Source of the DNA: Bradyrhizobium genosp. L
Lineage (GTDB): Bacteria > Pseudomonadota > Alphaproteobacteria > Rhizobiales > Xanthobacteraceae
Assembly (NCBI RefSeq): GCF_015624485.1
Contig: NZ_CP061378.1
Location: 5,270,001 to 5,334,000 of the forward strand
Length of the DNA stretch: 64,000 bases
Direction of reading: 5' to 3'
Shown here one piece after another: positions 35,667 through 62,759 of the stretch. Positions within the stretch are counted from its first letter, which is position 1. Each line of letters begins with the position of its first letter. Under the pieces are notes generated by a model. The model did no database searches, was not told the DNA's origin, and saw only the letters and a list, made by a program, of their open reading frames with translations. Made by a program: the position numbers and the translations under genes.

Positions 35667-35718
35667 ACCAGGACGACCGCGGCCGGACCACGAGCCGGGC
35701 ATCAGGGAAGGAAACGAC

Positions 35719-36747: not shown

Positions 36748-36765
36748 CACAACGCGGAGCTCGAC

Positions 36766-37278: not shown

Positions 37279-37293
37279 TCGCGAGGGGCCACG

Positions 37294-38589: not shown

Positions 38590-38681
38590 ACAGAAGACGC
38601 GTCTTGCAAGGCTGCGGCAAACGCGGCAGCATCCAGGGTAGAAGCGCGCCTGCGCCAGCTCCGTCAAGAAAGGGCACCCGC

Positions 38682-39368: not shown

Positions 39369-39393
39369 CGTTGCGGAGAGACTGGGAAACCCG

Positions 39394-40389: not shown

Positions 40390-40492
40390 CCGGATCAAGA
40401 TTGCGCGACACGCGCAGCGTGTGCCTTGCGACCGTTTCCCTGCCTCCCTACGGTGCGTCCCACCAAAAACAAGGATCAGGGAGGCGATTGTT

Positions 40493-46313: not shown

Positions 46314-46316
46314 GCT

Positions 46317-47132: not shown

Positions 47133-47172
47133 GGTGAGAAATGGTGCCCCGGGGGAGGAGCACCATATTGCC

Positions 47173-48368: not shown

Positions 48369-49520
48369 ATGTACCAGCCGCCCGGCGTCAAGACATCGCC
48401 CGACCTTGCCATTTCCGATCAGATGAAAGCCTGGGTCCTCGGTGACCCCGACCAGTTGCTCCTGCGCGACAAGCCGACGCCGGTCCCCTCGCGCGCCGAG
48501 GTGCTGGTCCGCATCGACGCCGTCGCGATCTGCGCCACCGATCTCGAGATCATCCATGCAGGCTCGCCGGCGAGCATTCAGGGCGGCCTCCCCTTCAACA
48601 AGAATTTTACGCCGGGCCACGAGTATATGGGCACGGTTGCCGCACTCGGACCCGCAGTCGACGAGTTCAGGATCGGCGAACGGGTCAGCGTGGAAATTCA
48701 TGCCGGCTGCGGCCAGTGCAAGCGCTGCCGCCAGGGCATGTATACGTCCTGCCTGAACTATGGAAAGCCCGAGAAGGGACACCGCGCCAACGGCTTTACG
48801 ACCGACGGCGGCTTCGCCGAATACGCGATCAATCACATCAACACGCTGGCGCGCGTGCCCGATACCATGAGCGACGCGGAAGCAACGCTCGTGGTGACCG
48901 CCGGGACGTCGATGTATGGCTTGACGGAATTGGGGGGATTGGTTGCCGGCGAGAGCGTCGCCGTGATCGGCCCCGGGCCGATCGGACTGCTCGCGGTGGC
49001 CGTCGCCAAGGCGCTCGGCGCCAGTCCGGTGATCCTCACCGGAACGCGCAACAAGCGGCTTGCGATTGGCGAAGGGCTGGGTGCCGATCGCGTCATCAAC
49101 ATCAATGATGAAGATGCAGTGGCGGTCGTGAAGCAGCTGACTGGCGGGAGCGGCGCCGACTATGTCGTCGAATGCGCCGGGACCGAAGCGACGCTCAACC
49201 AGGCCATCCACATGACCAACCGCGGCGGCAAGATCTGCCTGGCCGCCTTCCCGCACGAAGCCGCAACGCTGGACATCGCGCATCTGGTGCGGAACAACAT
49301 CTATGCTTACGGCATCCGTGGCGAGGGTCGCAGCGCCACCCATCGCGCGATGGAATTGATGGCCGAGAAGCGGTTCGACGCCACCAAGATACACACGCAT
49401 ACATTCCCGCTGGCCGACCTGCCGACCGCGCTGCGCTATGCGCGCGATCGCGTGGACGATGCAATCAAGGTGGTCGTCACCAATCGTAAAGACGCTGCGA
49501 TCGCAAGCGCCGCGGAGTAG
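48369..49520 (+). CDS. Zinc-dependent alcohol dehydrogenase (MDR family)
   Basis: A 383-residue medium-chain dehydrogenase. Catalytic zinc ligands are Cys55 (VAICATDLE), His84/Glu85 (GHEYMG) and a later partner. The structural zinc lobe is CGQCKRCRQGMYTSC, with Cys114, 117, 120 and 128. The nucleotide fold has GPGPIGLLAV (201-210). It oxidises an alcohol or polyol, or reduces an aldehyde, with NAD(P). It is divergent from the ABC importer operon, from which its role may be tied (for instance handling the alcohol released by the phosphodiesterase), but this is only an idea from location. AAAGAGGAAG precedes ATG 48369. Confidence 0.9.
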   Translation: MYQPPGVKTSPDLAISDQMKAWVLGDPDQLLLRDKPTPVPSRAEVLVRIDAVAICATDLEIIHAGSPASIQGGLPFNKNFTPGHEYMGTVAALGPAVDEFRIGERVSVEIHAGCGQCKRCRQGMYTSCLNYGKPEKGHRANGFTTDGGFAEYAINHINTLARVPDTMSDAEATLVVTAGTSMYGLTELGGLVAGESVAVIGPGPIGLLAVAVAKALGASPVILTGTRNKRLAIGEGLGADRVININDEDAVAVVKQLTGGSGADYVVECAGTEATLNQAIHMTNRGGKICLAAFPHEAATLDIAHLVRNNIYAYGIRGEGRSATHRAMELMAEKRFDATKIHTHTFPLADLPTALRYARDRVDDAIKVVVTNRKDAAIASAAE

Positions 49521-49554: not shown

Positions 49555-50259
49555 TCACACCGAGCAGTAGCGCTCCTTGATCTCGTCGTCGGCGAGCAAA
49601 GCCTGCGCCGATGCTTGATGTACCACCGAGCCTTGATCGAGCACATAGGCGCGGTCGGCGATGTCGAGCGCAAGCTCGACATTTTGCTCGACCAGGAGGA
49701 CGGTCGTCCCCTGCGCCTTCATGCTGCGGAACAACGCAAACATCTCGTCCACGAGAACCGGCATGATGCCTTCGGACGGCTCATCCAGCATGATCAGGTC
49801 GGGCTTCGCGATCATCGCGCGGGCAATCGCCAGCATCTGCTGCTCGCCGCCGGACATGGTGACGGCCTCCTGATCCATGCGTTCCGCCAACCTTGGGAAA
49901 ATCCCCGCGATATCGCCGATCAGTTCGGCCTCGCGCTTCTTCTGCGGTGACGCGACGAGGCCGAGCCGTAGATTCTCACGCACCGACAGGCCCTGCACAA
50001 TCCGCCGCTCCTCCGGCACATAGGCGAGCCCCAGTGCAAAGCGCGTATGCGCCGGCCGCTGCAGTAGCTCCTGGCCCTTGAAGATGACCGAGCCTCTCGT
50101 TCGATCCATCAGGCCCATGATGGATTTCAGCGTGGTGGTCTTGCCCGCGCCGTTGCGACCGATCAGGCAGACGATTTCTCCCCTGGCAACTTCCAGGCTG
50201 ATGTCCTGCAACGCATGGCTTGCGCCATACCAGGCATTGAGCTTGCTGATCTGCAGCAT
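49555..50259 (-). CDS. livF: Branched-chain-type ABC transporter ATPase LivF
   Basis: A 234-residue ATPase with GRNGAGKTT (Walker A), SGGEQQMLAIARA (signature), LIMLDEPSEG (Walker B) and an H-loop (LLVEQN in place of the usual H, typical of LivF). It is the last gene of the liv set, three bases after livG. The set is downstream of the molybdenum hydroxylase genes, so the importer likely supplies the hydroxylase's substrate rather than branched-chain amino acids. Confidence 0.92.
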   Translation of the reverse strand: MLQISKLNAWYGASHALQDISLEVARGEIVCLIGRNGAGKTTTLKSIMGLMDRTRGSVIFKGQELLQRPAHTRFALGLAYVPEERRIVQGLSVRENLRLGLVASPQKKREAELIGDIAGIFPRLAERMDQEAVTMSGGEQQMLAIARAMIAKPDLIMLDEPSEGIMPVLVDEMFALFRSMKAQGTTVLLVEQNVELALDIADRAYVLDQGSVVHQASAQALLADDEIKERYCSV

Positions 50260-50262
50260 CCG

Positions 50263-51033
50263 TCAATGCTCCCGCTGTCCTAGGTAGACGCGCTTCACCG
50301 CTTCGTTCTGCCGGACCTCCTGCGGCGTTCCCTCGGCAAGCAGCTCGCCGTGATGCAGCACGAGGATACGGTCGCTGATCCCGAGCACCAACTTCATCTT
50401 GTGCTCGACCAGGATCACGGTGCGTTCCTTGGCAAGCTTTACGATCAGATCCATCATCGTCCGGGTTTCTTCCGGGCTCATCCCTGCGGTCGGCTCGTCC
50501 AGCAACAGCAAGCGCGGCTGACTGGCCAAGGCCATGCCGATCTCCAGCGCTCGCTGCTCGCCATGCGCCAGCGTCTTGGCCGCGCGTTCGCGGGCCTCCC
50601 ATAACCCAACCAGAGCAAGCAGCTCATCCGCACGCGCGACCAGCTCGCTCAGGCGAGCGCGCGGTCGCCAGATGTCGTATCGCGACACCAGCGCCTGCAG
50701 GCCGACCCGGATGTTCTCGCGCGTCGTGAGCTGGGGAAAGACGCTGGTGATCTGAAAAGATTTCGCGATCCCCATATGCGCGAAGCGATGCTGCGGCAGC
50801 CCGGTGACATCCCTGCCCTCGAACTCGACGTGGCCGCTCGAGGGCGGGAAGGCGCCACAGAGCAGGTTGAAGTAGGTGCTCTTCCCGGCCCCATTCGGAC
50901 CGATGATGGAGGTGATCTTCCCCTTGGAGAACTCCGCCGAGATATTGTTCAGCGCGACAAACTTCCCGAACGTCTTGCCGATGCCCCTGGTGCGCAGGAT
51001 GACTTCGCCTGACTGTGCTGCAATGACGGTCAT
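50263..51033 (-). CDS. livG: Branched-chain-type ABC transporter ATPase LivG
   Basis: A 256-residue ATPase. Walker A GPNGAGKST, the short LivG insert after it (FPPSSGHVEFEGRDVTGLP), the signature AHGEQRALEIGMAL and Walker B LLLLDEPTAGMS are present; the switch is ILVEHKM. ATG 51033 overlaps the livM stop by four bases. A longer in-frame reading upstream is antisense to LivM's frame and not used. Confidence 0.92.
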   Translation of the reverse strand: MTVIAAQSGEVILRTRGIGKTFGKFVALNNISAEFSKGKITSIIGPNGAGKSTYFNLLCGAFPPSSGHVEFEGRDVTGLPQHRFAHMGIAKSFQITSVFPQLTTRENIRVGLQALVSRYDIWRPRARLSELVARADELLALVGLWEARERAAKTLAHGEQRALEIGMALASQPRLLLLDEPTAGMSPEETRTMMDLIVKLAKERTVILVEHKMKLVLGISDRILVLHHGELLAEGTPQEVRQNEAVKRVYLGQREH

Positions 51034-52016
51034 CGTTTGCTCCGCGCGATCAACGTGCCCCAGATCCCGGCCGGGAAGAACAGCACACATGCGACGAAGA
51101 TCGCGCCGACGATCAATTGCCAGTGCACGGTCCACACCGAGACCACGTTCTCCAGGACGAGGAAAACTGCCGCACCGATCATCGGCCCGAAGAACGTCCC
51201 CATGCCGCCCAGCAGCGCAATCATCACCACGAGCCCCGACGTCTCGTAGTGCAGGATCTCGATCGGCACGATGGAGAGATGAAGCGCCTGCAACGCACCG
51301 GCGAGACCGCAGAAGCCGCCTGAGAGCACGAAGGTCAGCAACCGGGTCAGAGTGACGTCGTAGCCCGATGCGCGCGCCCGCATCTCGTTCTCGCGCACCG
51401 CCTCGATGACGGCACCGAACGGAGACGCCAGGATGCGAGACATCACGAAAAAAGCGGCGATCACGAACGCCGCGATGACATAGTAGCGCGCCATCGGATT
51501 GATGAAGTCGATCCTCAGGCCGAACAGGTCGATGGTGCGGATGTTGATGCCGCGAAGGCCGTTCTCGCCGCCGGTCCAGTCGACGGCCTGATAGAACAGG
51601 TAGTAGACGCATTGCGACAGCGCCATCGTCACCATCGCAAAGTAGATTCCGCGGGTGCGGATCGCCAGCACGCCGATCAGCAGCGCCATCAACAACCCGC
51701 CAAGAACGCCGGCCGCGATCGCCGCGTACCACGGCCAACCGAAATGGACGACCGCAATGCCGCAGAGATAGGCGCCGGTCCCGAACAGCGCCGCATGACC
51801 GAACGACAGCAGCCCCAGATATCCGAACACAAGGTTGAATCCGAGTGCATACAGCCCGTAGATCAGGATGTTCACCGCCAGAGCCGTGAACGGCATCAGC
51901 AGAGGGAAAATCAGGATCACCACGGCTGCGATGCTGGCGCGATGGCGCGTCGCGAATTCGTACCAACCGGCGGAGGTGGCACGAGGCTGCTTGATGGACT
52001 CGGTGGCTTCGGTCAT
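51030..52016 (-). CDS. livM: Branched-chain-type ABC transporter permease LivM
   Basis: A 328-residue membrane permease with 8-10 helices. The LivM signature is GYLGLLSFGHAALFGTGAY in the first third and RENEMRARASGYDVTLTRL (EAA-like docking loop). It starts seven bases after livH ends and overlaps livG by four bases, so all are coupled. Confidence 0.92.
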   Translation of the reverse strand: MTEATESIKQPRATSAGWYEFATRHRASIAAVVILIFPLLMPFTALAVNILIYGLYALGFNLVFGYLGLLSFGHAALFGTGAYLCGIAVVHFGWPWYAAIAAGVLGGLLMALLIGVLAIRTRGIYFAMVTMALSQCVYYLFYQAVDWTGGENGLRGINIRTIDLFGLRIDFINPMARYYVIAAFVIAAFFVMSRILASPFGAVIEAVRENEMRARASGYDVTLTRLLTFVLSGGFCGLAGALQALHLSIVPIEILHYETSGLVVMIALLGGMGTFFGPMIGAAVFLVLENVVSVWTVHWQLIVGAIFVACVLFFPAGIWGTLIARSKR

Positions 52017-52023
52017 GCCCGGT

Positions 52024-52908
52024 TCAACTCATCAGCCCGGCGCGGCCGAAGAACCCCTGAGGTCGAACGATCAGAACGATCGCCATCAGGGCAAAGATCG
52101 ACACCTTGGCCATTTCGGGTGCAAACAGCGAGGTCATGCTGACGACCACGCCGACCAGAAGACCCGCCAATACCGCACCGCCGATCGAGCCCATGCCGCC
52201 GACCACCGTCACCACGAAAGCTTCGGCGAGAATGGTGCCGCCCATCTCCGGAATGACGCCCTGCAGCGGGGCCGCCAACAGGCCGGCGAAGCCGGCGATC
52301 GCAGTTCCGATCCCGAAGACGATCAGCCAGACGCGTGACACATCGACGCCAAGGACACGGACAATTTGCGGATCGCGAGCACCAGCGCGAATGATCAGCC
52401 CGAAGCTCGTCTTTTCCAGGAACAGCCAGAGCGCCAGCAGGACGACGGCGGTGGCTCCAATCACAAAGAGACGGTAAAGCGGGAAATATCCGACGCCGAT
52501 GTCGACGGCCCCTTGCAGCACCTCTGGCGTATCGAAGGGGTAGCCGGTCTTGCCGAACGCGATGCGTACACATTCGACCATGACGTAACTCAGCCCGAAG
52601 GTAAGCAGCAGCGGATAGTCGATACCGCGGCCATAAAGCGGACGGATCAGCACCCGCTCGACCGCGAGCCCGAACACTCCGACCGCAAGCGGCACCGCCA
52701 CCAGGCAGAGCCAGAAATTGCCACCGATCGAGATCAGATAGAGCCCGACATAGGCACCAACCATGTAGAACGCGCCGTGGGCGAAGTTGACGACCGTCAG
52801 CATCCCGAAGATCAGCGAAAGGCCGATCGCAAACAGCACGTAGATCGCGCCGAGCGCCAAGCCTGCGAACAATTGCAGCGCGATCAGATCAAAGCTCAGG
52901 CCCGCCAT
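52024..52908 (-). CDS. livH: Branched-chain-type ABC transporter permease LivH
   Basis: A 294-residue membrane permease. Family marks are GLSLIFGMLTVVNFAHGAFY near the N-terminus, the docking loop RAGARDPQIVRVLGVDVSRV, and GGMGSIGGAVLAGLLVG near the C-terminus. ATG 52908 is the family start; an upstream in-frame stretch would overlap the livK coding region in another frame. It follows livK after a 53-base gap. Confidence 0.92.
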   Translation of the reverse strand: MAGLSFDLIALQLFAGLALGAIYVLFAIGLSLIFGMLTVVNFAHGAFYMVGAYVGLYLISIGGNFWLCLVAVPLAVGVFGLAVERVLIRPLYGRGIDYPLLLTFGLSYVMVECVRIAFGKTGYPFDTPEVLQGAVDIGVGYFPLYRLFVIGATAVVLLALWLFLEKTSFGLIIRAGARDPQIVRVLGVDVSRVWLIVFGIGTAIAGFAGLLAAPLQGVIPEMGGTILAEAFVVTVVGGMGSIGGAVLAGLLVGVVVSMTSLFAPEMAKVSIFALMAIVLIVRPQGFFGRAGLMS

Positions 52909-52961
52909 CCGTCCCCCCAAGCAGGCGCGCACCGTTCGACGGCGCGCGCCATTGCGCGAGC

Positions 52962-54215
52962 TCAGCTCTTGTGGCCGAGCGCTTCGCAGGTGCGCAGGTA
53001 CTTTTCGTTGGGCTCCTCGGTCGAAAGAACCTCGAACACGTCGGAGTCGTTCTTCATGTCCTTGGACTTCGACTTGATGACGAGAACCGATTGCACCGAT
53101 TGGTGATCGCATTTGCGGTAGTATTGCGGCCCCTTGTAGTAGTCGTACTTCAGGGCTTCCAACGCTGCGACCACCTTGTCGGTCTCGACGCTGCCCGCGT
53201 TCTTGACCGCCTCGAGCACAGTCCGCACGCCACCGTAGCCGAGCGCGCCGTAATCGGTCGGCAGCTTGTTGTCATACATCTTGCGAAACGCCTCGTTGAA
53301 CGCCTTGGTCGAGGCGAACTTGTCCTCGATACCCCAGTAGAACGAGCAGCCGCCGACAACGCCCTCGAACGCCTGCGCGCCCGCGGCGACGCGGCTGGCG
53401 TGCGAGAGCAACGGCGCGATGATCTGGATCGACTTCTTGATGCCGAAATCGGTTGCCTGCTTCAGCGCGATCTGCTGGTCGCGGCCGAAATTGCTGATGC
53501 AGAGGATATCGGGCTTCAGCGCCTGAAGCCGGGGCAGCAGGGTCGAGAAATCGGTCGTTCCCAGCGGATGACGGATGTCGCCGAGATTCTCGATATTGAA
53601 GTCCTTGCCGACCTCGAGGAAACCGCGAACCATCTCGTGGCCGTAGGCGTAGTCAGCGGTAAGGAATGCAACCTTCTTGCCGAACTTGGAGAAGGCGTAG
53701 CGGCCGACCGCGCCCGACGTCATGTGCGGATTCAGGGCTTCATGGAATGTGTACTTGCTGAAATCGGCCGCCTCGTTGATGGCGTCGGACTGGCTGATCG
53801 AGTTGAAGATGATGCCGCGTTCCTTGGTGACGTTGTTGATCGCTAGCTGAACCGCCGCCGACAGACTGCCGACGACGAAATTGACCTTCTCCTTCTCGAC
53901 CAGTTCTAGCGTCCGCGTCGCCGCCTCTCCGGGATTGAGCTTGTCGTCACGCACGACGAGTTCGGCCTTCCTGCCGTTGAGACCATCGCCATCATTGAAC
54001 TGGGCGATGGCGAGCTGCGCTGCGCGCACTTGGTCCTGCGCCTCGGCGCCATAGGGACCGGTCAGGGGAACGGGGAAGCCGATCTTGATGGATGCTTCCT
54101 GCGCCTGCAGCAGATTGATACGGAATGGCGAGGCGGCAAGAATGGCGCCGGCGCCGGCTGTCGTCAGGAGCCGGCGGCGCGAAACCGACCCGGCTTTGGT
54201 GTCCGTCTTCCTCAT
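52962..54215 (-). CDS. Branched-chain-type ABC transporter solute-binding protein LivK-like, Tat-exported
   Basis: A 417-residue periplasmic receptor (Peripla_BP_6 type). The leader contains SRRRLLTTAGAGAILAASPF, a twin-arginine form. The mature domain begins IKIGFPVPLTGPYGAEAQDQ; YAYGHEMVRGFLEVGKD and FGIKKSIQIIAPLLSH are later features. Such receptors in catabolic clusters bind aromatic or heterocyclic acids and amides, not only amino acids. It is 68 bases after the hydroxylase large subunit and starts the liv set. Confidence 0.9.
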   Translation of the reverse strand: MRKTDTKAGSVSRRRLLTTAGAGAILAASPFRINLLQAQEASIKIGFPVPLTGPYGAEAQDQVRAAQLAIAQFNDGDGLNGRKAELVVRDDKLNPGEAATRTLELVEKEKVNFVVGSLSAAVQLAINNVTKERGIIFNSISQSDAINEAADFSKYTFHEALNPHMTSGAVGRYAFSKFGKKVAFLTADYAYGHEMVRGFLEVGKDFNIENLGDIRHPLGTTDFSTLLPRLQALKPDILCISNFGRDQQIALKQATDFGIKKSIQIIAPLLSHASRVAAGAQAFEGVVGGCSFYWGIEDKFASTKAFNEAFRKMYDNKLPTDYGALGYGGVRTVLEAVKNAGSVETDKVVAALEALKYDYYKGPQYYRKCDHQSVQSVLVIKSKSKDMKNDSDVFEVLSTEEPNEKYLRTCEALGHKS

Positions 54216-54282
54216 CCCTGTTCCTCCCCAAATATTGCCAGTTTGGCTTGTTGTATTTGTGTTTGCCTGGAACGTCGCCGTC

Positions 54283-56676
54283 CTAGATTCGTCCCAATGC
54301 CGTCAGGATAACCTGAGGCGTGAGCGGAATCTCCGTAATTATAGTGCCAAAGGGCCGGAGCGCGTCGTTGACCGCATTGGCAACCGCAGCCGCCGCCCCG
54401 GCAGTGCCGGCCTCGCCCGCCCCCTTGGCACCCAGCTCCGTCTCCAGGGTCGGCGAGACCACGTGGCCGATCTCGATATCTGGCATCTCGCCGGACATCG
54501 GGACCAGATAGTCCGCCATGTTTGCGTTGGTCAGTTGACCACGCTCATCATAGACGCACTTCTCGAACAGCGCTGCGCCCAGTCCCTGCACCACCCCTCC
54601 CCGGATCTGCTCGTCGACCAGTTGCGGATTGATGATCGTACCGCAATCTTCGACCACCCAGTGATTCAGCAATTTGACGAATCCGGTCTCGGTATCGACC
54701 TCGAGCCAGGAGGCCTGAACGCCGTTGGTAAAGGCAAAGGGATACTGTCGGGGAACAAAATGCCGGGTCGCCATCAATTCGGGTTGGGTACCCGGTGGCA
54801 GCGTGTCCGGACGGAAGTAGACGATGCGCGCCAGCTCGTCCAACTCGATCCGCGATGCCCCGTCGCTGACGCCGACAATGCTGTTGCCGACGATGTCGAG
54901 CGTGGTTGGCTTGGATTGCAGGATGGCCGCAGCAACATCCAGAATGTTCTTGCGCAGGACCTTGGCCGCCTGCAATGCCGCCTCGCCGCCGATGCCGGCG
55001 CCACGCGACGCCCATGTCCCGCCGCCATAGGGCGTGTTGTCGGTATCCCCGAGAATAACGCGGACTCGCTCCATGGAGACGCCAAGCACGCTGCCGACGA
55101 TCTGGGCCGTCAGCGATTCCGAGCCTTGCCCCTGCTCCGTGATGCTGGTCTGGCAGATCACAGAGCCCTGCGCGTCGAGCCGCACCGCAACGCCGTCCTG
55201 TGACGAAATCTTCGCGCCGCCGACGCCATAGAAAGCGGCGCTCGGATTGGTCACTTCGATGAAGCTCGCAATGCCAATCCCGCGGTGGATGTTACTGGAC
55301 CGCAGCGCCGCCTGCTCGGCTCGCAGCCCGTCGTAGTTCATCATCTGGAGCAACTTGGCCAGCGAGGCATGGTGCGACAGCTGCTCGAACTTCATGCCCG
55401 ACGGCGACGCGCAGGGATAGGCATCGTCAGCGATCAGGTTGCGGCGGCGAATTTCCACCGGATCCATGCCGATCCGCGCGGCGGCCAGATCGACCAGACC
55501 TTCGGTCACCGAGCAGGCAATCGGGTGTCCGACCGCCCGATACTGGCACATGACATTCTTGTTCTGGAAAACGACCCGGGCGCGCGCCCGATAGTTCTGG
55601 GCGACATATGGGCCACCGACCAGGTTGACCACCTGGTTTGCCTCGATGGCGCTGGTCCGCGGATACATCGAATAGGGACCGATGCCGGTCAGATCATCGA
55701 TCTCGAAACCGACAATCATCCCATCCTGCTTGACGCCGATCCGGCCTTTGCAGCGATGATCGCGGGCGTGAATGTCGGTGTTGAAGCTTTCGACACGGTC
55801 AGCAACGAATTTGACGGGCCGGCGCAGCAGCTTGGACAGCGCGTAAGTCGCCATTTCGTCTGCGTAGATGTGGACCTTGATGCCAAAGGAGCCACCGACG
55901 TCTTTGCAGACGACACGAACCTGCGATTCCTTCAGTCCGAGATGCAAGGCCGCGATGTTCTGCACCATGTGCGGCGCCTGCGTGCCCTGATAGATAGTCA
56001 GCCGCGCCTCGGCCGCGTTCCAGTCGGCGACGACGGCGCGCGATTCGAGCGTCACGCCGGTATGCCGCCCGAAGACGAAGTCGGCCTCAACCACGGCGTC
56101 AGCTTCCGAAAATGCCCGGTCGACATCGCCGGCATGGAGGATCCGCTCAAAGGCAAGATTGTCTTTCAGCGACGCATGAATGACGGGTGTCGACGGATCG
56201 AGCGCGGTGCGCATATCCGTGACCGCCGCGAGCTCTTCGTAGTCGACGGAAATGTGCTCCATGGCGTCTTCGGCGGCCGCACGGTTGGTTGCCACAATCG
56301 CCGCGACCGCCTCTCCCTGCCAGCAAACGCGATCGATCGCGATGGCGCTTTGCGGCGCCGACTTCAATCCCTTCAGATGCGAGAGGACGCCGACCCAGGG
56401 CGTAATGACGGCCTCGAGTTCGCGACCGGTGACGACGGCGATCACCCCCGGCATACGCTTGGCAGCGCTGGCATCGATCGCCACGATACCGGCGTGAGCA
56501 TGCGGCGACCGCAAGAACACCACATGCACCATCCGCGGCAGTTCGAGGTCGCTGACATATTGCCCGCGGCCTTGAAGGAGCCGGTCCAGGTTAGGTCGCG
56601 GCACCGTCTTGCCGATGTATGAATTCGGGCGGTCAAGCACCGAGAGCGTATCTGGTGGCGGACGAGCAGCGCTCAT
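54283..56676 (-). CDS. Xanthine-dehydrogenase-type hydroxylase, molybdopterin (large) subunit
   Basis: A 797-residue Mo-binding catalytic subunit hydroxylating a ring or aldehyde carbon with water-derived oxygen. The sequence around the molybdenum ligand is CQYRAVGHP, distinct from the AYRCSFR active loop of true CO dehydrogenase (form I). Other marks are GRGQYVSDLELPRMVHVVFL, VGGSFGIK and AKGAGEAGTAGAA with the C-terminal catalytic glutamate (GAGE). ATG 56676 overlaps the 2Fe-2S subunit stop by four bases. With the FAD and 2Fe-2S genes it forms one complete enzyme. Confidence 0.92.
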   Translation of the reverse strand: MSAARPPPDTLSVLDRPNSYIGKTVPRPNLDRLLQGRGQYVSDLELPRMVHVVFLRSPHAHAGIVAIDASAAKRMPGVIAVVTGRELEAVITPWVGVLSHLKGLKSAPQSAIAIDRVCWQGEAVAAIVATNRAAAEDAMEHISVDYEELAAVTDMRTALDPSTPVIHASLKDNLAFERILHAGDVDRAFSEADAVVEADFVFGRHTGVTLESRAVVADWNAAEARLTIYQGTQAPHMVQNIAALHLGLKESQVRVVCKDVGGSFGIKVHIYADEMATYALSKLLRRPVKFVADRVESFNTDIHARDHRCKGRIGVKQDGMIVGFEIDDLTGIGPYSMYPRTSAIEANQVVNLVGGPYVAQNYRARARVVFQNKNVMCQYRAVGHPIACSVTEGLVDLAAARIGMDPVEIRRRNLIADDAYPCASPSGMKFEQLSHHASLAKLLQMMNYDGLRAEQAALRSSNIHRGIGIASFIEVTNPSAAFYGVGGAKISSQDGVAVRLDAQGSVICQTSITEQGQGSESLTAQIVGSVLGVSMERVRVILGDTDNTPYGGGTWASRGAGIGGEAALQAAKVLRKNILDVAAAILQSKPTTLDIVGNSIVGVSDGASRIELDELARIVYFRPDTLPPGTQPELMATRHFVPRQYPFAFTNGVQASWLEVDTETGFVKLLNHWVVEDCGTIINPQLVDEQIRGGVVQGLGAALFEKCVYDERGQLTNANMADYLVPMSGEMPDIEIGHVVSPTLETELGAKGAGEAGTAGAAAAVANAVNDALRPFGTIITEIPLTPQVILTALGRI

Positions 56677-57158
56677 ATCGATCGCTCCATCCGCGCCTTC
56701 GCCGTCGCCTCGACGGCGTCCACGATCGCCTGATAGCCGGTGCAGCGACAATAATTTCCGGAAAGATGCTCGCGGATCGCCTGACGATCCGGTGCAGGCA
56801 AATGCTTGAGCAAGTCCTGCGCCGTGATCAGCATCGCGGGCGTGCAATAGCCGCATTGCAGTGCATTGCGCTCGCGAAACGCCGCCTGGAGATCGGCAAT
56901 TTCGCCACTGTCGGACAGCCCCTCGATCGTCTCGACCGACGCCCCCTGCGCCTGCAGCGTCAGCATCAGACAGGAGCGAACGATCTCGCCATCGATGCGC
57001 ACGGTGCAGGCACCGCAGACCCCATGCTCGCAGCCGACATGAGTTCCCGTCAGCTTCAGATTGTCCCGGAGGAAGTCAGCAAGATTGAGCCGCGGCAAGA
57101 CAAAGGCATCGACGGGTTCGCCGTTGACCAAGAGCGAGACCGGTACCGGGGCGGTCAA
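56673..57158 (-). CDS. Xanthine-dehydrogenase-type hydroxylase, 2Fe-2S (small) subunit
   Basis: A 161-residue electron-transfer subunit with two [2Fe-2S] clusters. Cys43, 48, 51 and 63 (CEHGVCGACT and later C) bind the plant-type cluster; Cys102, 105, 137 and 139 (CGYC and CRC) bind the second. The most likely start is TTG 57158, overlapping the FAD-subunit stop by four bases (TTGA) and preceded by GGGAGCGG. No ATG is near the correct N-terminus, and longer starts give non-family residues. Confidence 0.88.
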   Translation of the reverse strand: MTAPVPVSLLVNGEPVDAFVLPRLNLADFLRDNLKLTGTHVGCEHGVCGACTVRIDGEIVRSCLMLTLQAQGASVETIEGLSDSGEIADLQAAFRERNALQCGYCTPAMLITAQDLLKHLPAPDRQAIREHLSGNYCRCTGYQAIVDAVEATAKARMERSI

Positions 57159-58036
57159 CCCGCCGCTCCCGTCTCGAGCTCCGGACGCGCGAGCAGCGTC
57201 GCCACACAATGTCGCAGCAAGACCTTTGCAAGATGCCGGCGCATGGCCGGAGTTGCCTGCTGATCTTGCTGCGGATCGAGTTCGTCGTCCAGCGCAGCCG
57301 ACGCTTCGTCGAGCGAGGCGGGGGTGACGGATACATTGATCAGCTTGCGCGCGGCCTCCACGAGGAGAGGCCGGTCCTCGACGGCAAAGAAGGCGAGCTG
57401 GAGAGCTGCGAACCGGCCGTCCTTGACGACAGCGTGAGCAGCAAGACCAATGATCGCGTAGTCGCCATGCCGCCGGGCGTACTCCTGGAAGAAGAATCTC
57501 GAGCCCTCGCCGGCGAGTGGTATCTCGATCGCGACCAGCAGCTCATTCGCCGACAGAGCCGTCTCGTAGATGCCCTTGAAAAATTCGCGTGCCGCGATCC
57601 GGCGTTCACCGTCCGGTCCGCGGACCACAACGGCCGCGTCGAGCGCTACTGTGCAGGCAGGCAGTTCCGACGCCGGATCCGCATGTGCGAGGCTTCCGCC
57701 GATCGTTCCGCGATTGCGAATTGCAGGATGAGCGACGTGGGTAACCGCCTCACGCAGCAATGGTGCATGTTCTGCCACCTCGGGGGATCTGAGCAATTCA
57801 ACGTGGCGGGTGAGTGCGCCGATGATCAATGCGTCGCGCCTTATCGTAATGCCACGCAACTCGGCAAGACCGCCGATATCGACCACGAGATCTGGAGACA
57901 TCAGGCGCAGGTTCATCGCCGGCATCAGGCTCTGGCCGCCCGACAGAACTTTGGCCCGGTCGCCGTGCGCAGCCAGCAGCTCCAGCGCATTCACGACGCT
58001 GGTCGGGCGGGCATAGGTGAAAGCCGCGGCTTTCAT
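57155..58036 (-). CDS. Xanthine-dehydrogenase-type hydroxylase, FAD (medium) subunit
   Basis: A 293-residue CoxM-type FAD subunit that passes electrons to an acceptor. FAD loops are AHGDRAKVLSGGQSLMP (split: AHGDRAKVLSGGQSLMPAM) and TIGGSLAHADPASELPA. It is first in the operon with the 2Fe-2S and Mo subunits and the liv importer, and divergent from the LLM monooxygenase; the promoter gap holds a shared motif. No maturation gene (XdhC/MobA-like) is adjacent. Confidence 0.92.
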   Translation of the reverse strand: MKAAAFTYARPTSVVNALELLAAHGDRAKVLSGGQSLMPAMNLRLMSPDLVVDIGGLAELRGITIRRDALIIGALTRHVELLRSPEVAEHAPLLREAVTHVAHPAIRNRGTIGGSLAHADPASELPACTVALDAAVVVRGPDGERRIAAREFFKGIYETALSANELLVAIEIPLAGEGSRFFFQEYARRHGDYAIIGLAAHAVVKDGRFAALQLAFFAVEDRPLLVEAARKLINVSVTPASLDEASAALDDELDPQQDQQATPAMRRHLAKVLLRHCVATLLARPELETGAAG

Positions 58037-58108
58037 TTGGGCGTGGCCTCCCCGGGCCGATTTTGGCTTTTTCGGATTAAAGGGTCGCCCCAGTTAAAGG
58101 TCAAGCTT

Positions 58109-58124
58109 GTTTATCGAGTGATTA
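58109..58124. promoter_or_regulatory. Candidate TetR operator, copy 1
   Basis: GTTTATCGAGTGATTA lies in the divergent gap between the hydroxylase/liv operon (minus) and the LLM monooxygenase (plus). It matches 14 of 16 bases with the sequence at 62719-62734. Internally it is an imperfect dyad (TTATC-GAGT-GATTA). A TetR regulator gene sits within the same block. Confidence 0.6.
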
Positions 58125-58201
58125 TTTAGTTGATGGGGCTTGTCATCGAGGCACGAAGGACGCAGGTTCCTGACCAACCAAAGCCGGCCGCGGAGCAGAT
58201 C

Positions 58202-59299
58202 ATGAAGCTCGGGTTCTTTACGATGCCGATCCATCCCGTCGACAAGGACTGGCGGCAATCGCTCCGGGAGGATCGTGAAGCATTCTTGCTCGCCGACGAG
58301 CTCGGGTTCACGGAGGCCTATGTCGGCGAGCATGTCACCGACAGAGCCGAGAACATCACCTCCAGCATCGCCTTCATCGCCTGGATCGCGGCTGCCACCA
58401 GGCAGATCAGACTGGGAACTGGCACGATCAATATGCCCAACGCCCATCCGGCGGCGATCGCGGCTTCAGTCGCCATGCTCGATCACATGCTGGACGGCCG
58501 CTTCATTCTCGGGATCAGCCCCGGCGGCCTGCTGTCCGACGCGGAGGTGTTCGGCAATCTCGACGCCGATCGCAATGCGATGTTCCTGGAAGCGATCAAT
58601 CAGGTTCTTGATATCTGGACAGGCAAGCCGCCTTATGACTTGCAGGGCAAGTACTGGAATATCTCGGTTGGAAAGACACTGATCGCCGACATCGGCCAAG
58701 GATTCATCCCCCGGCCGCTACAGACCCCCCACCCACCGATTGTCGTGACCGCGGTCGCGCCGTTCTCGAAGGGCGTCACGGAAGCCGCCGCTCGCGGCTG
58801 GGATCCGATCTCGGCAAACTTCCTGATGCCGGCCTGGGTGAAGAGCCATTGGCCCAAATATGTCGAGGGCTGCGAGCGCGTGAACCGGACCGTCGATGCC
58901 GCCAACTGGCGCGTTGCCAAGAGCGTGTTCGTCGCAAACGATGCGGCGACGGCAAAGGCTTATGCCACAGATCCCGACGGACCTTACGTGTACTACTATC
59001 ATCAGCTTTTCACGAAGCTGAAGCGAGGCGGCCGGCTTGAACTGTTCAAGACGCGTCGGGATCAACCGGACTCGGAGGTCACGCTGGAGTCGATCTGCGA
59101 CAAGCTGATCATCTACGGCACGCCCGACAGCGTGGCCGATCAGCTGCTGGCGTTCCAGGAGGAAGTCGGCCCGTTCGGAACCCTGCTTTATGCCGGCAAG
59201 GACTGGAAGGACCGCGAACTCGGCCGTCAATCAATGATCCTGATGGCCGAGAAAGTCTTGCCGCGGATCGACGTCGGCGCCGCTGGATCGTCGACCTGA
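58202..59299 (+). CDS. LLM-class flavin-dependent monooxygenase
   Basis: A 365-residue luciferase-like (bacterial luciferase-fold) flavin monooxygenase using FMNH2 and O2. Typical residues are the MKLGFFTMPIHP start, DELGFTEAYVGEHV, GTGTINMPNAHPAAIA and RFILGISPGG. The class includes RutA and other enzymes that oxygenate or open rings with amide or thio groups. Reduced flavin is likely supplied by the flavin reductase at 60877-61428. ATG 58202 has GGAG six bases upstream; a 24-residue longer start is possible. It is divergent from the hydroxylase operon, whose promoter gap holds the shared motif. Confidence 0.9.
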   Translation: MKLGFFTMPIHPVDKDWRQSLREDREAFLLADELGFTEAYVGEHVTDRAENITSSIAFIAWIAAATRQIRLGTGTINMPNAHPAAIAASVAMLDHMLDGRFILGISPGGLLSDAEVFGNLDADRNAMFLEAINQVLDIWTGKPPYDLQGKYWNISVGKTLIADIGQGFIPRPLQTPHPPIVVTAVAPFSKGVTEAAARGWDPISANFLMPAWVKSHWPKYVEGCERVNRTVDAANWRVAKSVFVANDAATAKAYATDPDGPYVYYYHQLFTKLKRGGRLELFKTRRDQPDSEVTLESICDKLIIYGTPDSVADQLLAFQEEVGPFGTLLYAGKDWKDRELGRQSMILMAEKVLPRIDVGAAGSST

Positions 59300-59314
59300 T
59301 CAAGGAGTCTCGCT

Positions 59315-60190
59315 GTGGCTTTCACTGATCGCATTCCCTATCAGGCTCAGATCGACCGGCCGAAGCTCACTTTGCCGGGCGGCAAGAAGCTTGCGGTCTG
59401 GGTCATCCTCAACGTGGAGGAATGGCGCATCGAAAATGCGATGCCGCGCACCGTGCTGAGCCCACCGATGGGACAACCTCTGCTGCCAGATGTACCGAAC
59501 TGGTCATGGCATGAATACGGCATGCGCGCCGGCTTCTGGCGGCAATTCAAGGCTCTCACCGACCGAAAGATACCTGTGACGCTGGCTCTGAACGCCAATG
59601 TCTGCAACAGCTATCCGCGCGTCGCATCCGCAGCGCTCGAAGCCGGCTTCGAGTTCATGGGCCATGGCTTCGTTCAGGGGCCGATGCACAAGCTCGAGAA
59701 CCAGCCCGATGCGATCAAGCGCGCGGTCGACACCATCGCGAAGTTCGCCGGCAAGCCGCCGAGGTCGTGGGAAAGTCCTGGTCTGACCGAGACCGACGAA
59801 ACGCTTGATCTCCTGCGTCTCAACGGTATCGAGTATGTGGCCGACTGGGTCATCGACGATCTTCCGCAGGATATCGCCACGCCGCACGGGACCGTGACGA
59901 CGATCCCCTATTCCGTCGAAACCAATGACATTGTCATTCACGCGCTGCAGCACCTTCCATCCGAGCAGTTCCTGAAGCGCTGCACCGACCAGTTCGATCG
60001 GCTCTACCTCGAAGGCGCGGAGAATGCACGGATCATGGCCATCTCGGTGCATCCCTACGTCACCGGGGTGCCGCATCGCATCAAATACCTGGAGGCTCTG
60101 CTCGACTACGTCATGGGCCACGACGGCGTAGCGATGATGACAGCAAGCGAGATCGGAGATTGGTACCGGAGCGAGACGGCCAAGGTGTAG
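59315..60190 (+). CDS. Polysaccharide-deacetylase-fold hydrolase (PuuE/cyclic-imidase-like)
   Basis: A 291-residue NodB-fold protein. The start is GTG 59315 with AAGGAG upstream, 15 bases after the LLM gene, so the two are co-transcribed. The first NodB metal motif (usual TFDD) is replaced by NVEEW (33-37), as in allantoinase PuuE and cyclic-imide hydrolase relatives. The His pair GHGFVQGPMHKLE (His117, His125) is in place. The family pattern HEYGMRAGFWR (66-76) also fits. I infer cleavage of an amide or imide ring rather than polysaccharide deacetylation. Confidence 0.85.
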   Translation: MAFTDRIPYQAQIDRPKLTLPGGKKLAVWVILNVEEWRIENAMPRTVLSPPMGQPLLPDVPNWSWHEYGMRAGFWRQFKALTDRKIPVTLALNANVCNSYPRVASAALEAGFEFMGHGFVQGPMHKLENQPDAIKRAVDTIAKFAGKPPRSWESPGLTETDETLDLLRLNGIEYVADWVIDDLPQDIATPHGTVTTIPYSVETNDIVIHALQHLPSEQFLKRCTDQFDRLYLEGAENARIMAISVHPYVTGVPHRIKYLEALLDYVMGHDGVAMMTASEIGDWYRSETAKV

Positions 60191-60193
60191 GCC

Positions 60194-60880
60194 TCAGCCG
60201 ACGGCCTTGATCGAAGCGCGCGGGCGATCGGTCGAGCTTTCGGCCAGCCGTCCAAATCCTGCGAGGAAAATGTCGAGTGCGTCGCTGATCATTTGCGCCT
60301 TATCCTCAAGGACCGGCGCATCATAAATGTACTTCCGCACACCATAATAGAAGATGCCGCCATGAAACACCCACGCCAGTTCCAATTCGGCGGCGCTCGG
60401 TTTGCTTTGCACCGCAAGCCCGGCATCGTGACGGCACTCCCTTATGATGCGGGCCAGGATCTTGTCCCTGACCATGCCGACGTACCAGCGATTGATATCG
60501 AGGCCCTTCAGGCCTGAATACAGATAGATCCGGAGCCATTTGCGGGTGAAGATCGCATCAGTGTAGTTTTGATAGAATTCCTGCAACCTTGCACGGAGGG
60601 GGCGCGACCGATCGGACAATAACCTGTCCCACCCCGGCTCGAGTGGACCAAGATAGACCTTCCGATAGACCTCCTTGATGAGGTCGTCCTTGCTCGGAAA
60701 GTACCGATAAAGCAGCGGCTGGGTTACCCCAAGCTTTCGCGCCAGTGCACGGGTGCCACCACCGAAGCCCTCTTCCGCGAATAGCTCGGTCGCCCTGGAT
60801 ACGAACTCGCTGCGGCGATCGTCGGCCGACAATCGTCTTTGCTTGACGCGCGTTCGCTTGGCCGGCGTCTTCCGATTCAT
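60194..60880 (-). CDS. TetR family transcriptional regulator
   Basis: A 228-residue repressor with a basic N-terminus (RKTPAKRTRVKQRRLSAD), HTH LARKLGVTQPLLYRYFPSKD, and a ligand domain with AWVFHGGIFYYGVRKYIYD near the C-terminus. It overlaps the flavin reductase stop by four bases and so is co-transcribed with the oxygenase pair: likely self-regulated. Candidate operators at 58109-58124 and 62719-62734 flank its block. The inducer is probably the compound degraded. Confidence 0.9.
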   Translation of the reverse strand: MNRKTPAKRTRVKQRRLSADDRRSEFVSRATELFAEEGFGGGTRALARKLGVTQPLLYRYFPSKDDLIKEVYRKVYLGPLEPGWDRLLSDRSRPLRARLQEFYQNYTDAIFTRKWLRIYLYSGLKGLDINRWYVGMVRDKILARIIRECRHDAGLAVQSKPSAAELELAWVFHGGIFYYGVRKYIYDAPVLEDKAQMISDALDIFLAGFGRLAESSTDRPRASIKAVG

Positions 60881-61428
60881 GAACCCCCGCCATCGTCAGC
60901 CAAAAACCGGCCAAAACCGCCCCGCGCAAACAACAGAGGTTCGTTCCCGTTGTAGGCGTATCCCTCCACCGCCCCGAGGAAAATGACATGGTCTCCACCG
61001 TAGTAGCGATTGGCGGCACGGCACTGAAAATTTGCGATCGCATCCGCGAGCACCGGCGCGTTTCCAAGGCCTGGCGCCCAGGTGACCCCTGCGAACTTGT
61101 CACCAGACGATTTGGCGAACTGCGAAGCGAGCGCATGGTGCGACGCGCCAAGAACATTGATGGCAAAATGACTGGCATTCTGAAAGATACTGAGCCCCTG
61201 CGAAAACATCCCCAAGCTCCAGAGCACCAGCGGTGGATTGAGCGACACCGACGCAAATGAATTGCACGTAATCCCGTAGGGTTTTCCGTCCGCTGACATC
61301 GCGGTGACAATCGTCACACCGGTCGCGAATGTGCCGAGCGCATTGCGGAAGTCGCGAGGATCAATCGCTGAATTGTCGCTGGCCAGCTCATTGGCCGGAT
61401 CAGCCGGATGTTTGGGTGGATCGGACAT
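60877..61428 (-). CDS. Flavin reductase family protein (HpaC-like)
   Basis: A 183-residue flavin reductase supplying FMNH2 or FADH2. The family pattern DFRNALGTFATGVTIVT, YGITCNSFASVSLNPPLVLW and FAINVLGASHHALASQFAKS is clear. It lies 10 bases downstream of the monooxygenase gene, the usual two-component pair, and can also serve the LLM enzyme. It ends overlapping the TetR start. Confidence 0.93.
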   Translation of the reverse strand: MSDPPKHPADPANELASDNSAIDPRDFRNALGTFATGVTIVTAMSADGKPYGITCNSFASVSLNPPLVLWSLGMFSQGLSIFQNASHFAINVLGASHHALASQFAKSSGDKFAGVTWAPGLGNAPVLADAIANFQCRAANRYYGGDHVIFLGAVEGYAYNGNEPLLFARGGFGRFLADDGGGS

Positions 61429-61438
61429 CCAGTCGGCC

Positions 61439-62665
61439 TCAAAGCGTCAGGTTTTCGGACGGTAGCCCGAGCGCGACCCGTCCGTAGTTGGTCCCGGCAG
61501 CATCAAAATTGAATGCCAGGTGGGAATTCACCGCATGTGCGTCGCGAAATTGGCGCTGCAGGGCTCCCGAGGTGAACAGGCTACGGGCTCCGCTCGCCGT
61601 AAACAGCAGCGACACAGCTTCGGTGCACAGATTGACCGAGAAGGCGCCGTCACGCCGGAGCTTCGTCTTCGCCGCAATCCCCGGCATCTGGCCGCGCCGG
61701 ACATCCGCAAGCACTTCAACGCAGTTGGTGCGCATGATCAGGCGCGCGGCATCTATCTTGGCCGATGCCTCGGCGATCTTGATCTGCGTCGTCTGCAGAT
61801 CACCGATCTTGGCTCTGTTATAGGTAGAGGCGCGATGCCGCGCGATTTCGACGTAATCATCGAGACACGCCTGGGCATTGCCCAGTCCGACCCCTGAGAG
61901 AACGTATGGGAATAGCGAGAACACGGGAAGCGCATAGAGCGCGTTGGGATTGACGACGCTACCCGGCGTTGGACCACCCGCGAGGTCTCTCACGGCAACC
62001 GTCATATGCCCGGGGACAAACGCATCCGCCACCCGGACGTCGTTGGATCCTGTTCCCTGCAGGCCGGTCGCATTCCACGTATCATTGATGCCGTAGTCCC
62101 GCCTGTTCAGGAGAAACAAGCGGTACTCTACGCCATCGGCTTCGTCGTCGGACGCAACGACGCCTGCGAGCATGTTCCACTCGCAAGCTTCCACGCCGGA
62201 CGAGAACGGCCAATGACCATTCAAGACATAGCCGCTATCTGTCTTCCGGGCGCGACCGGCCGGGAAAACGAAAGACGACGCGATCAGCGTGTTCGGGTCC
62301 GCGCCCCACACCGTGCTCTGCGCCTCCGGTGAGAACATGGCCAGCATCCAATGATGGCTCGCGAGATTGGCAAAATTCCAAGAGACCGATGCATCGCCCT
62401 GCCCCAAGGCATCGGCGCAGTCGACCAGGGCGACATAGTCGAGTTCGCTTCCACCGACACGCCGCGGCTGCAGGATCCGGAACAGCCCGCTGTCTTGGAG
62501 ATCCCGTTCTGTCTCCGGCGGCAGTCGGCGCAGTTCCTCAGTCCGCGGAGCCCGCTCGCGCAGCGCGGGAACGAGCGCCCTGGCTCGCGCGACCATGACC
62601 GAGTCTTCGTTTGGACGTGGCGCTGCCGGTACAGCAGCGTCAAGCCCGCGGCCAACCTCAACCAT
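61439..62665 (-). CDS. Acyl-CoA-dehydrogenase-fold flavin monooxygenase (HpaB/DszC-like)
   Basis: A 408-residue oxygenase of the two-component group D (acyl-CoA dehydrogenase fold) like HsaA, DszC and HpaB types. Features are LFRILQPRRVGGSELDYVAL, GDASVSWNFANLASHHWMLA, YVLNGHWPFSSGVEACEWNM (a recognised substrate-binding segment) and C-terminal SGARSLFTSGALQRQFRDAH. It works with the flavin reductase next to it. The start is uncertain: ATG 62665 or ATG about 22 codons later (residue 24). It is the first gene of the operon ending in the TetR gene, and the shared motif lies 54 bases upstream. Confidence 0.85.
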   Translation of the reverse strand: MVEVGRGLDAAVPAAPRPNEDSVMVARARALVPALRERAPRTEELRRLPPETERDLQDSGLFRILQPRRVGGSELDYVALVDCADALGQGDASVSWNFANLASHHWMLAMFSPEAQSTVWGADPNTLIASSFVFPAGRARKTDSGYVLNGHWPFSSGVEACEWNMLAGVVASDDEADGVEYRLFLLNRRDYGINDTWNATGLQGTGSNDVRVADAFVPGHMTVAVRDLAGGPTPGSVVNPNALYALPVFSLFPYVLSGVGLGNAQACLDDYVEIARHRASTYNRAKIGDLQTTQIKIAEASAKIDAARLIMRTNCVEVLADVRRGQMPGIAAKTKLRRDGAFSVNLCTEAVSLLFTASGARSLFTSGALQRQFRDAHAVNSHLAFNFDAAGTNYGRVALGLPSENLTL

Positions 62666-62718
62666 CGGCGTTTCCTGCGTTCGATCCAGCTTCAGATGCG
62701 CGGTCGATCTGACGTCTA

Positions 62719-62734
62719 GTTTATCGAGCGATCA
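62719..62734. promoter_or_regulatory. Candidate TetR operator, copy 2
   Basis: GTTTATCGAGCGATCA matches 14 of 16 bases with the motif at 58109-58124 and lies 54 bases upstream of the monooxygenase start. Two copies in two promoters of one block, absent from other gaps I inspected, support a shared regulator. Confidence 0.6.
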
Positions 62735-62759
62735 ACAGAGATCAAGGCGCATAAGCCAA

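Follow-up and report, generated by a model that had tools for sequence, protein, structure and literature searches.

Which compound is handled by the catabolic genes at positions 49555 to 62665 of the stretch of Bradyrhizobium genosp. L DNA analyzed here (contig NZ_CP061378.1, positions 5,270,001 to 5,334,000; 64,000 nucleotides, henceforth the window), and do these genes belong together? The genome is a single contig of 7.4 Mb that is 99.98% complete, and an initial annotation of the window had proposed that the genes form a self-contained block for the uptake and degradation of a probably N-heterocyclic compound. On balance, we favor the view that the block serves the breakdown of an N-heteroaromatic compound, most likely of the pyridine type, and that TetR controls it as a single catabolic regulon.

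Every gene that the initial annotation named was found in its place, with an open reading frame (ORF), and the genes fall into three operons. The first, on the minus strand and in the order FAD-FeS-Mo-SBP-LivHMGF, encodes the FAD subunit (57155..58036; FAD_binding_5, CO_deh_flav_C), the 2Fe-2S subunit (about 56673..57158; Fer2_2, Fer2), and the molybdenum-cofactor large subunit (54283..56676; MoCoBD_1, MoCoBD_2, Ald_Xan_dh_C) of a hydroxylase, followed by a Liv-type ABC importer. The importer consists of a periplasmic solute-binding protein (SBP; 52962..54215; Peripla_BP_6, 67% to the binding protein of L097, L-numbers denoting comparison loci and G-numbers genomes), a LivH-type permease (about 52024..52908; BPD_transp_2, 72% to an ABC permease of L097 that is annotated for branched-chain amino acids), a LivM-type permease (51030..52016; BPD_transp_2), a LivG-type ABC ATPase (about 50263..51033, with an ATG at 51033; ABC_tran and BCA_ABC_TP_C), and a LivF-type ABC ATPase (49555..50259; Pfam ABC_tran, NCBIfam UrtE/LivF-like under the cut-offs). 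The 2Fe-2S and Mo genes overlap by a few bases, as do the FAD and 2Fe-2S genes if the probable TTG start at 57158 is used. Divergent from this operon, on the plus strand, are the genes for an LLM-class flavin-dependent monooxygenase (58202..59299; Bac_luciferase, ATG start) and a NodB-fold, PuuE-like hydrolase (59315..60190; Polysacc_deac_1, TIGR03212 under the cut-off, GTG start). The third operon, on the minus strand and in the order OxyD-FlvR-TetR, encodes the oxygenase of a group D flavin monooxygenase that resembles HsaA and the C2 component of p-hydroxyphenylacetate hydroxylase (HPAH) (OxyD; 61439..62665; Acyl-CoA_dh_2), a flavin reductase (FlvR; 60877..61428; Flavin_Reduct, like the HPAH reductase and HsaB, under the cut-offs), and a TetR-family regulator (60194..60880; TetR_N).

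We examined the linkage of these genes by scanning genome contigs with the NodB protein and taking the best 80 of 587 confirmed loci; most of these are labelled Bradyrhizobium or Afipia, and several end at contig ends. Gene presence was called by identity thresholds, and a gene is said to be in view when it lies within the locus shown. LLM was in view in 75 of the 80 loci, the Mo genes in 63, the group D oxygenase in 53, FlvR (at least 50% identity) likewise in 53, and TetR in 43. LLM stands immediately before NodB in 65 loci; LLM, the Mo genes, OxyD, and FlvR are jointly in view in 50, and these four together with TetR in 34. Thus, in answer to whether the genes are scattered in other genomes, as the initial annotation had asked, the set centered on NodB is not. 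In L089 and L095, two metagenome-assembled genomes (MAGs) labelled as belonging to the Rhizobiaceae group, LLM, NodB, the Mo genes, TetR, and OxyD are retained but reordered, with TRAP-importer genes among them (TRAP domains were seen by scanning in L082 and L087). The importer varies across the 80 loci (the window's Liv type in 23, another Liv in 19, BPD_transp_1 in 14, TRAP in 8). The ratio of nonsynonymous to synonymous substitution rates (dN/dS), computed against three to five relatives, was 0.034 to 0.254 for 10 of the 13 genes (LivG, LivM, and LivH were left out, and two comparisons, one of TetR and one of FlvR, had no usable dS). These low ratios, together with the joint presence of the genes in related loci, indicate that the block is more than a product of chance. 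In a sample of 398 genomes from the phylum, NodB (E 1e-60) was matched in nine, of which five belong to the window's genus (89-100% identity), and had no match at that threshold in five other listed genomes of the genus; being patchy within the genus, it marks an accessory trait.

What appears to join the operons to one another is a palindrome. The divergent promoter region between the FAD and LLM genes (58037..58201) has a TTGACC-17-TTTAAT-like element facing the Mo operon (read by eye, and conserved in a 16-row alignment) and a conserved segment that includes an imperfect palindrome, TTATCGAGTGATTA (58111..58124). Sequence searching located a second copy, TTATCGAGCGATCA (62721..62734), upstream of the third operon, where it sits between the hexamers TTGATC and TAAACT (also read by eye). 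Both resemble TTATCGNNCGATAA and are putative operators; a simple promoter scan of 57900-62900 returned no site. In the whole genome the pattern TTATCGANYGATYA had just two exact matches, one in each promoter region of the block, although their exactness is partly by construction, the consensus having been drawn from these sites and their relatives. The same pattern had nine matches with one mismatch, several of them inside ORFs, and when read backwards it had a single match. Since the palindrome is present in both promoter regions, and its only exact matches in the genome are there, the operons look like one unit. The initial annotation's claim of a single self-contained unit is thereby strengthened, as it is by the recurrent co-localization of the genes and by the change of importer while the enzymes stay.

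The presence of the regulator tracks with that of the palindrome. Among 46 loci in which FAD and LLM are at most 400 bases apart, all 26 that have a TetR match carried TTATCGNNCGATAA with no more than two mismatches in the gap, compared with only 9 of 2000 random sequences matched in composition. TetR is therefore the probable owner of the operator, and we infer that it binds the palindrome. In relatives from other families the palindrome precedes Mo, TRAP, cyclase, OsmC, HIBDH, HisD, CocE, and DHPH-like genes (DHPH, 2,6-dihydroxypyridine hydroxylase), with five places in L087 against 0.8 expected and four in L092 against 0.15. We also note that one of the one-mismatch places lies 290 bases before an SDR-like ORF and another between two binding-protein-like ORFs.

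The enzyme encoded by the first operon is a three-subunit Mo hydroxylase of the xanthine oxidase family, with separate FAD, 2Fe-2S, and Mo subunits bearing the expected Pfam domains; its Mo subunit branches inside Bradyrhizobium. Among solved proteins the Mo subunit was matched by CoxL (8uem; 444 bits) and then by quinoline 2-oxidoreductase (437.5 bits). The two differ at an active-site loop, which reads YRAVGHP in the Mo subunit, YRGVGFT in the quinoline enzyme (shared YR[A/G]VG), and CSFR in the aligned CO dehydrogenases. Form I aerobic CO dehydrogenase was rejected as an identity on account of this loop and of a TIGR02416 score of 468.9 bits against a cut-off of 991.15. Xanthine dehydrogenase, which has the motif GGFGGKE, with its glutamate, was likewise rejected: the window protein has GGSFGIKV in its place and reached 415 of 780 and 408 of 916 bits with the XdhA models.

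A clue to the substrate comes from an exchange of oxygenases. OxyD and FlvR, encoded in one operon, constitute a group D two-component flavin monooxygenase with an oxygenase of the acyl-CoA dehydrogenase type. The nearest solved protein to OxyD is the 3-HSA hydroxylase oxygenase (2rfq; 235.8 bits), and its score with the HsaA model was 331.5 bits (cut-off 450). Five of the 80 loci have instead an FAD monooxygenase resembling DHPH; four are labelled Rhodobacteraceae, Paracoccaceae, or Histidinibacterium and one Microvirga, and the L082 protein scored 163.6 bits with DHPH, the next match being tropone monooxygenase at 81.1 bits. OxyD is in view in 53 loci and the DHPH-like enzyme in five, and no locus has both. 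At the level of genomes (E 1e-70), 9 of 14 had OxyD only, 5 had the DHPH-like enzyme only, and none had both or neither. The 14 comprise the window's own genome and 13 that were chosen by hand among the 80 loci so as to vary the gene context, once the pattern at the loci had been seen, and they are partly related, so that the exclusion is a strong pattern to which no exact probability attaches. Because the two enzymes exclude each other and yet belong to different Pfam families, the likeliest explanation is that they carry out one shared reaction, and the exchange suggests the hydroxylation of an electron-rich, hydroxylated ring, specifically an N-heteroarene. In the excerpted discussion of a study of 3-hydroxypyridine (PMC6525221), the four known pyridine beta-hydroxylases are described as needing an alpha-hydroxyl group, usually one supplied by Mo enzymes, which matches an order in which the Mo enzyme acts first and the flavin enzyme second. 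An N-heterocyclic substrate, as initially proposed, thus stands as the best guess, given the exchange of oxygenases and the likeness of the Mo subunit to quinoline oxidoreductase.

As a separate observation, a VOC/glyoxalase-fold protein is encoded near OxyD in 11 of the 80 loci, with the palindrome before its gene (L056, L064, L071, L073, L075, L077, and L095), and a distant VOC relative adjoins a DHPH-like gene in Paraburkholderia and Cupriavidus plasmids. The protein could be a ring-cleaving dioxygenase.

For both enzymes of the second operon the initial assignment needs correcting. LLM had been called RutA-like, a description that found no support: its best solved relative is 3,6-diketocamphane 1,6-monooxygenase (93.8 bits, the next scoring 58.6), and none of the 21 distinct solved chains listed as its matches bears the name RutA. 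By this likeness LLM would be a flavin oxygenase, and it may belong to the type II Baeyer-Villiger monooxygenases. In nine of the 80 loci the next gene after LLM encodes a PcaD-like hydrolase, and the one copy scanned, that of L096, exceeded the enol-lactonase cut-off (267.5 versus 255.85). The NodB protein is nearest among solved proteins to 1z7a (unnamed) and PuuE (3cl6), and its Glu35, His117, and His246, invariant in 20 of 20 aligned sequences, align with residues of the same kind in PuuE. It is not itself the PuuE allantoinase, an identity that was rejected because TIGR03212 gave 125.5 bits (cut-off 424.6) and a PuuE above the cut-off (526 bits) is encoded elsewhere in the genome. Hence, of the earlier assignment to the PuuE or imidase type, the PuuE likeness stands (88 bits with 3cl6), albeit far below the PuuE cut-off, whereas "imidase" is something we infer, because the protein is nearer to PuuE than to HpPgdA, the relative of a known imidase (see below), a comparison that gauges only indirectly its kinship with the clade of HxnM and the cyclic imide hydrolase of P. 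putida YZ-26.

Taken as a pathway for an N-heteroarene, the block would work as follows. The Liv-type importer would take up the substrate, and the Mo hydroxylase would use water to oxygenate the ring at a position adjacent to its nitrogen. OxyD and FlvR, or in some relatives the DHPH-like FAD enzyme, would then add a second (beta) hydroxyl. LLM, whose gene is followed in nine loci by that of the enol-lactonase-like hydrolase, would carry out an oxygenation, possibly of the Baeyer-Villiger kind, of a ketone or side chain. The NodB-fold enzyme would open the ring, its target being a C-N bond in a tautomer of the cyclic imide or lactam form. TetR would repress all three operons until bound by an intermediate. 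Both this order of steps and the dicarboxylic half-amide that the initial annotation proposed as the product are conjectural. A fuller version of this proposal can be put forward only tentatively, as possible though not probable. It is that an N-heteroarene pathway is distributed across Alphaproteobacteria in which a PuuE-like NodB enzyme opens a cyclic-imide tautomer by hydrolysis, on the model of the fungal imidase HxnM, without a dioxygenase, LLM contributes an extra step, and two unrelated oxygenases are interchangeable at the beta-hydroxylation under one conserved operator. The recurrent module would mark a nutrient, perhaps an alkaloid-like compound of plants or algae, for many soil and marine Alphaproteobacteria, and one that is unnamed in the literature searched; the shared palindrome offers a handle on the whole regulon and the exchange of the two-component oxygenase for the DHPH-like enzyme a direct way to test the reaction. 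If the proposal is true, a PuuE-like ring-opener of new specificity would also improve the annotation of the many proteins that at present carry the name polysaccharide deacetylase or allantoinase.

Several observations weigh against a single regulon for a pyridine-type compound. With regard to the operator, the palindrome (at most two mismatches) is retained in 6 of the 20 loci that have no TetR match in view, and at this stringency it is absent from L088, L098, L099, L100, and L175. The window has three such places against 1.15 expected, two being the promoter copies and the third, at 14836, lying outside the block. With regard to linkage, a class sample of 385 genomes contained 21 with a relative of the Mo subunit (E 1e-200), 21 with a relative of LLM (E 1e-80), and 7 with both, and in 6 of these 7 the two were on different contigs, the window's own genome being the only one with both on the same contig. 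Separate contigs prove no distance in draft assemblies, but they do in G677 and G748, whose contigs are about 1 Mb or more. Because relatives of Mo and LLM are mostly apart in this sample, we conclude that the parts are modular and that tight linkage belongs to the NodB-bearing set. Even within that set, L079 has NodB and a DHPH-like gene with neither LLM nor Mo genes in view, and neither oxygenase is in view in eight loci with Mo genes (a count at the level of loci, seven of these being 13.6-20.9 kb long). With regard to chemistry, the solved protein that scores highest with the Mo subunit is a CO dehydrogenase, the NodB protein is closer to PuuE (88 bits) than to HpPgdA (3qbu; 44 bits), and the DHPH-like proteins found among the block's relatives share only 28-32% identity with the enzyme of an Arthrobacter plasmid that is presumed to be DHPH. 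A final point, the company kept by a related operon in Methylobacterium, belongs to the strongest alternative.

That alternative, which we regard as unlikely, is the C-8 oxidation of a methylxanthine of the caffeine type: the Mo enzyme would produce a methylurate, the monooxygenase would hydroxylate it, the resulting hydroxyisourate would decay, and NodB would be a methylallantoinase. An orthologous FAD-FeS-Mo-SBP-LivHMGF operon on a Methylobacterium plasmid (Mo 68%, SBP 67%, LivH 72%) adjoins two uraH genes, uraD, and genes for NCS1, an Asp/Glu racemase, and a DHPH-like monooxygenase; a NodB-domain gene that lacks annotation is close by, and in one case a close homologue of its Mo subunit was named caffeine dehydrogenase by its source. 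If this DHPH-like monooxygenase acts on urate, then the exchange of oxygenases would point to methylurate hydroxylation and NodB to a methylallantoinase. NodB is indeed nearer to PuuE than to other named solved proteins, and UraH occurs somewhere in 11 of the 14 genomes tested. Nevertheless, the window's own genome, which is complete, has no match for UraH or for OHCU decarboxylase (UraD), whereas each of these families was matched in 4 of the 14 control genomes. In addition, the Mo-Liv operon occurs with a DHPH-like gene at L169 and L170, in two further genomes of the class, and no uraH or uraD match lies within about 20 kb there. Moreover, the monooxygenases of L082 and L097 scored 163.6 and 165 bits with DHPH versus 63 and 76 with 3rp8, which we take to be the urate enzyme HpxO, and the enol-lactonase and Amidohydro_2 neighbors have no obvious fit to a methylxanthine route. 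The caffeine genes of methylobacteria come from a paper that, in its excerpted part, is based on genome annotation (PMC10499228).

The caffeine pathway of Pseudomonas CBB1 allows a direct comparison. As described in an excerpt of PMC4408171, C-8 oxidation there involves CdhABC, TmuM, TmuH, and TmuD, the cluster includes a putative trimethylallantoinase, and trimethyl-hydroxyisourate (TM-HIU) decays spontaneously. By this description CBB1 and the window both have a three-subunit Mo enzyme, a flavin monooxygenase, and an allantoinase-like hydrolase, whereas LLM is an addition in the window and its genome is without a UraH or UraD match.

Still less probable is a substrate that is no N-heterocycle at all but an O-heterocycle, a phenolic, or a ketone. 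In that case OxyD would hydroxylate a phenol, as HsaA and HPAH do, LLM would oxygenate a ketone, and the Mo enzyme would be either a ring hydroxylase or one of the aldehyde type. The best families of OxyD are indeed phenol hydroxylases, the nearest relative of LLM is a ketone monooxygenase, and the PcaD-like hydrolase, above the enol-lactonase cut-off in L096, would suit such a route. But the enzyme that takes the place of OxyD in some relatives is nearest to dihydroxypyridine hydroxylase, the anchor gene of the set encodes a PuuE-like C-N hydrolase, and among solved proteins quinoline oxidoreductase comes close to being the best match for the Mo subunit. That three unrelated operons adjoin by chance is very improbable: the separation of Mo and LLM relatives in six of seven genomes of the class sample would be expected on that view, but the shared palindrome, the recurrent linkage, and the maintenance of linkage despite rearrangement contradict it. 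We give next to no credence to oxidation of CO or aldehydes by an enzyme like CO dehydrogenase, for although CoxL is the top solved match, the loop motif and the TIGR02416 score fail the test.

Returning to an N-heteroarene regulon, we compared the block with two pathways for pyridine-type compounds, drawing in part on plasmid searches that supplied the Methylobacterium, Alicycliphilus, and Arthrobacter loci. The nicotine pyridine-pathway cluster of the Arthrobacter plasmid (L211) contains kdhC, the FAD monooxygenase presumed to be DHPH, a cyclase, an SRPBCC protein, and a C-N hydrolase. It resembles the block's relatives in clustering a Mo hydroxylase with a cyclase and a DHPH-type monooxygenase, genes that in some relatives stand beside the palindrome; L087, for example, has a relative (33%) of the Arthrobacter cyclase with the palindrome upstream. 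It differs from the window, which has a group D two-component oxygenase, LLM, and NodB, and whose genome has no DHPH-like match at E 1e-70. The second pathway is the hxn nicotinate pathway of Aspergillus nidulans (HxnS, HxnX, HxnV, HxnT, HxnW, HxnM, and HxnN), in which, according to the excerpted text of PMC9304392, HxnM opens a cyclic imide and has the NodB-type HpPgdA as its nearest solved relative. Mo hydroxylation, flavin hydroxylation, and then imide opening, as proposed for the window, would follow the scheme in that excerpt (PMC9304392), so that HxnM may serve as a precedent for the imide-opening step, not as proof of membership. Differences are that the window's NodB is nearer to PuuE, that LLM is extra, and that no OYE-type or amidase gene was seen among the block's scanned proteins. 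Single enzymes offer more distant parallels: quinoline 2-oxidoreductase is only the second-best solved match of the Mo subunit and a distant one, with the YRxVG loop in common, and PuuE allantoinase belongs to the same sequence family as NodB, with the three residues named above aligned but a score far under the cut-off. The initial annotation could put no pathway name to this combination of genes, and we too met no paper on the combination, and no matching named pathway, in the open-licence literature that was searched.

Some NodB-bearing loci depart from the usual arrangement. In L068 (10887-13256) LLM-NodB adjoins a molybdopterin oxidoreductase of the PF00384 (DMSO-reductase) kind, as by similarity it does in L069 and L086; these three have no Mo hydroxylase of the xanthine oxidase family in view and have a GntR-type gene before LLM. 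Four alphaproteobacterial MAGs (L084, L088, L090, and L091, one labelled SAR116) encode NodB relatives at 75% identity with no LLM or Mo genes in view, and share an order of genes for a CMD-type protein, a flavin reductase relative, MocA, HIBDH, and a fumarylacetoacetase-like protein. One stretch of Alicycliphilus denitrificans plasmid pDP3 (L100) holds genes for two Mo hydroxylases, a polysaccharide-deacetylase-family protein (32% to NodB), an amidase, and TcuAB (tricarballylate), a set that would be consistent with the conversion of a pyridine carboxylate, by way of an imide, into a tricarboxylate.

Finally, we note several features that flank the block. A zinc alcohol dehydrogenase gene on the plus strand (48369..49520; ADH_zinc_N, ADH_N) is possibly associated with it, relatives at 70% identity or more being found in 26 of the 80 loci. 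A possible second ABC importer on the minus strand (44473..48180) comprises a TOBE_2 ATPase, two BPD_transp_1 permeases, and an SBP_bac_6 binding protein; relatives of this BPD_transp_1/SBP_bac_6 type are in view in 14 of the 80. Further upstream, at 35563-41587, is a second catabolic-looking cluster with a DctP-type binding protein and an Amidohydro_2 protein and, in between, cyclase-like and Tct-type binding-protein-like ORFs (by eye), and parts of this cluster are conserved in relatives, likewise upstream of the block (L206, L207, and L209). On the other side an insertion sequence begins at about 62770 and occupies the rest of the window (62770-64000). It lies just outside the promoter of OxyD-FlvR-TetR, whose palindrome and hexamers are intact, and has a transposase ORF of 461 amino acids (genome ORF 62809-64194) and candidate short inverted repeats.

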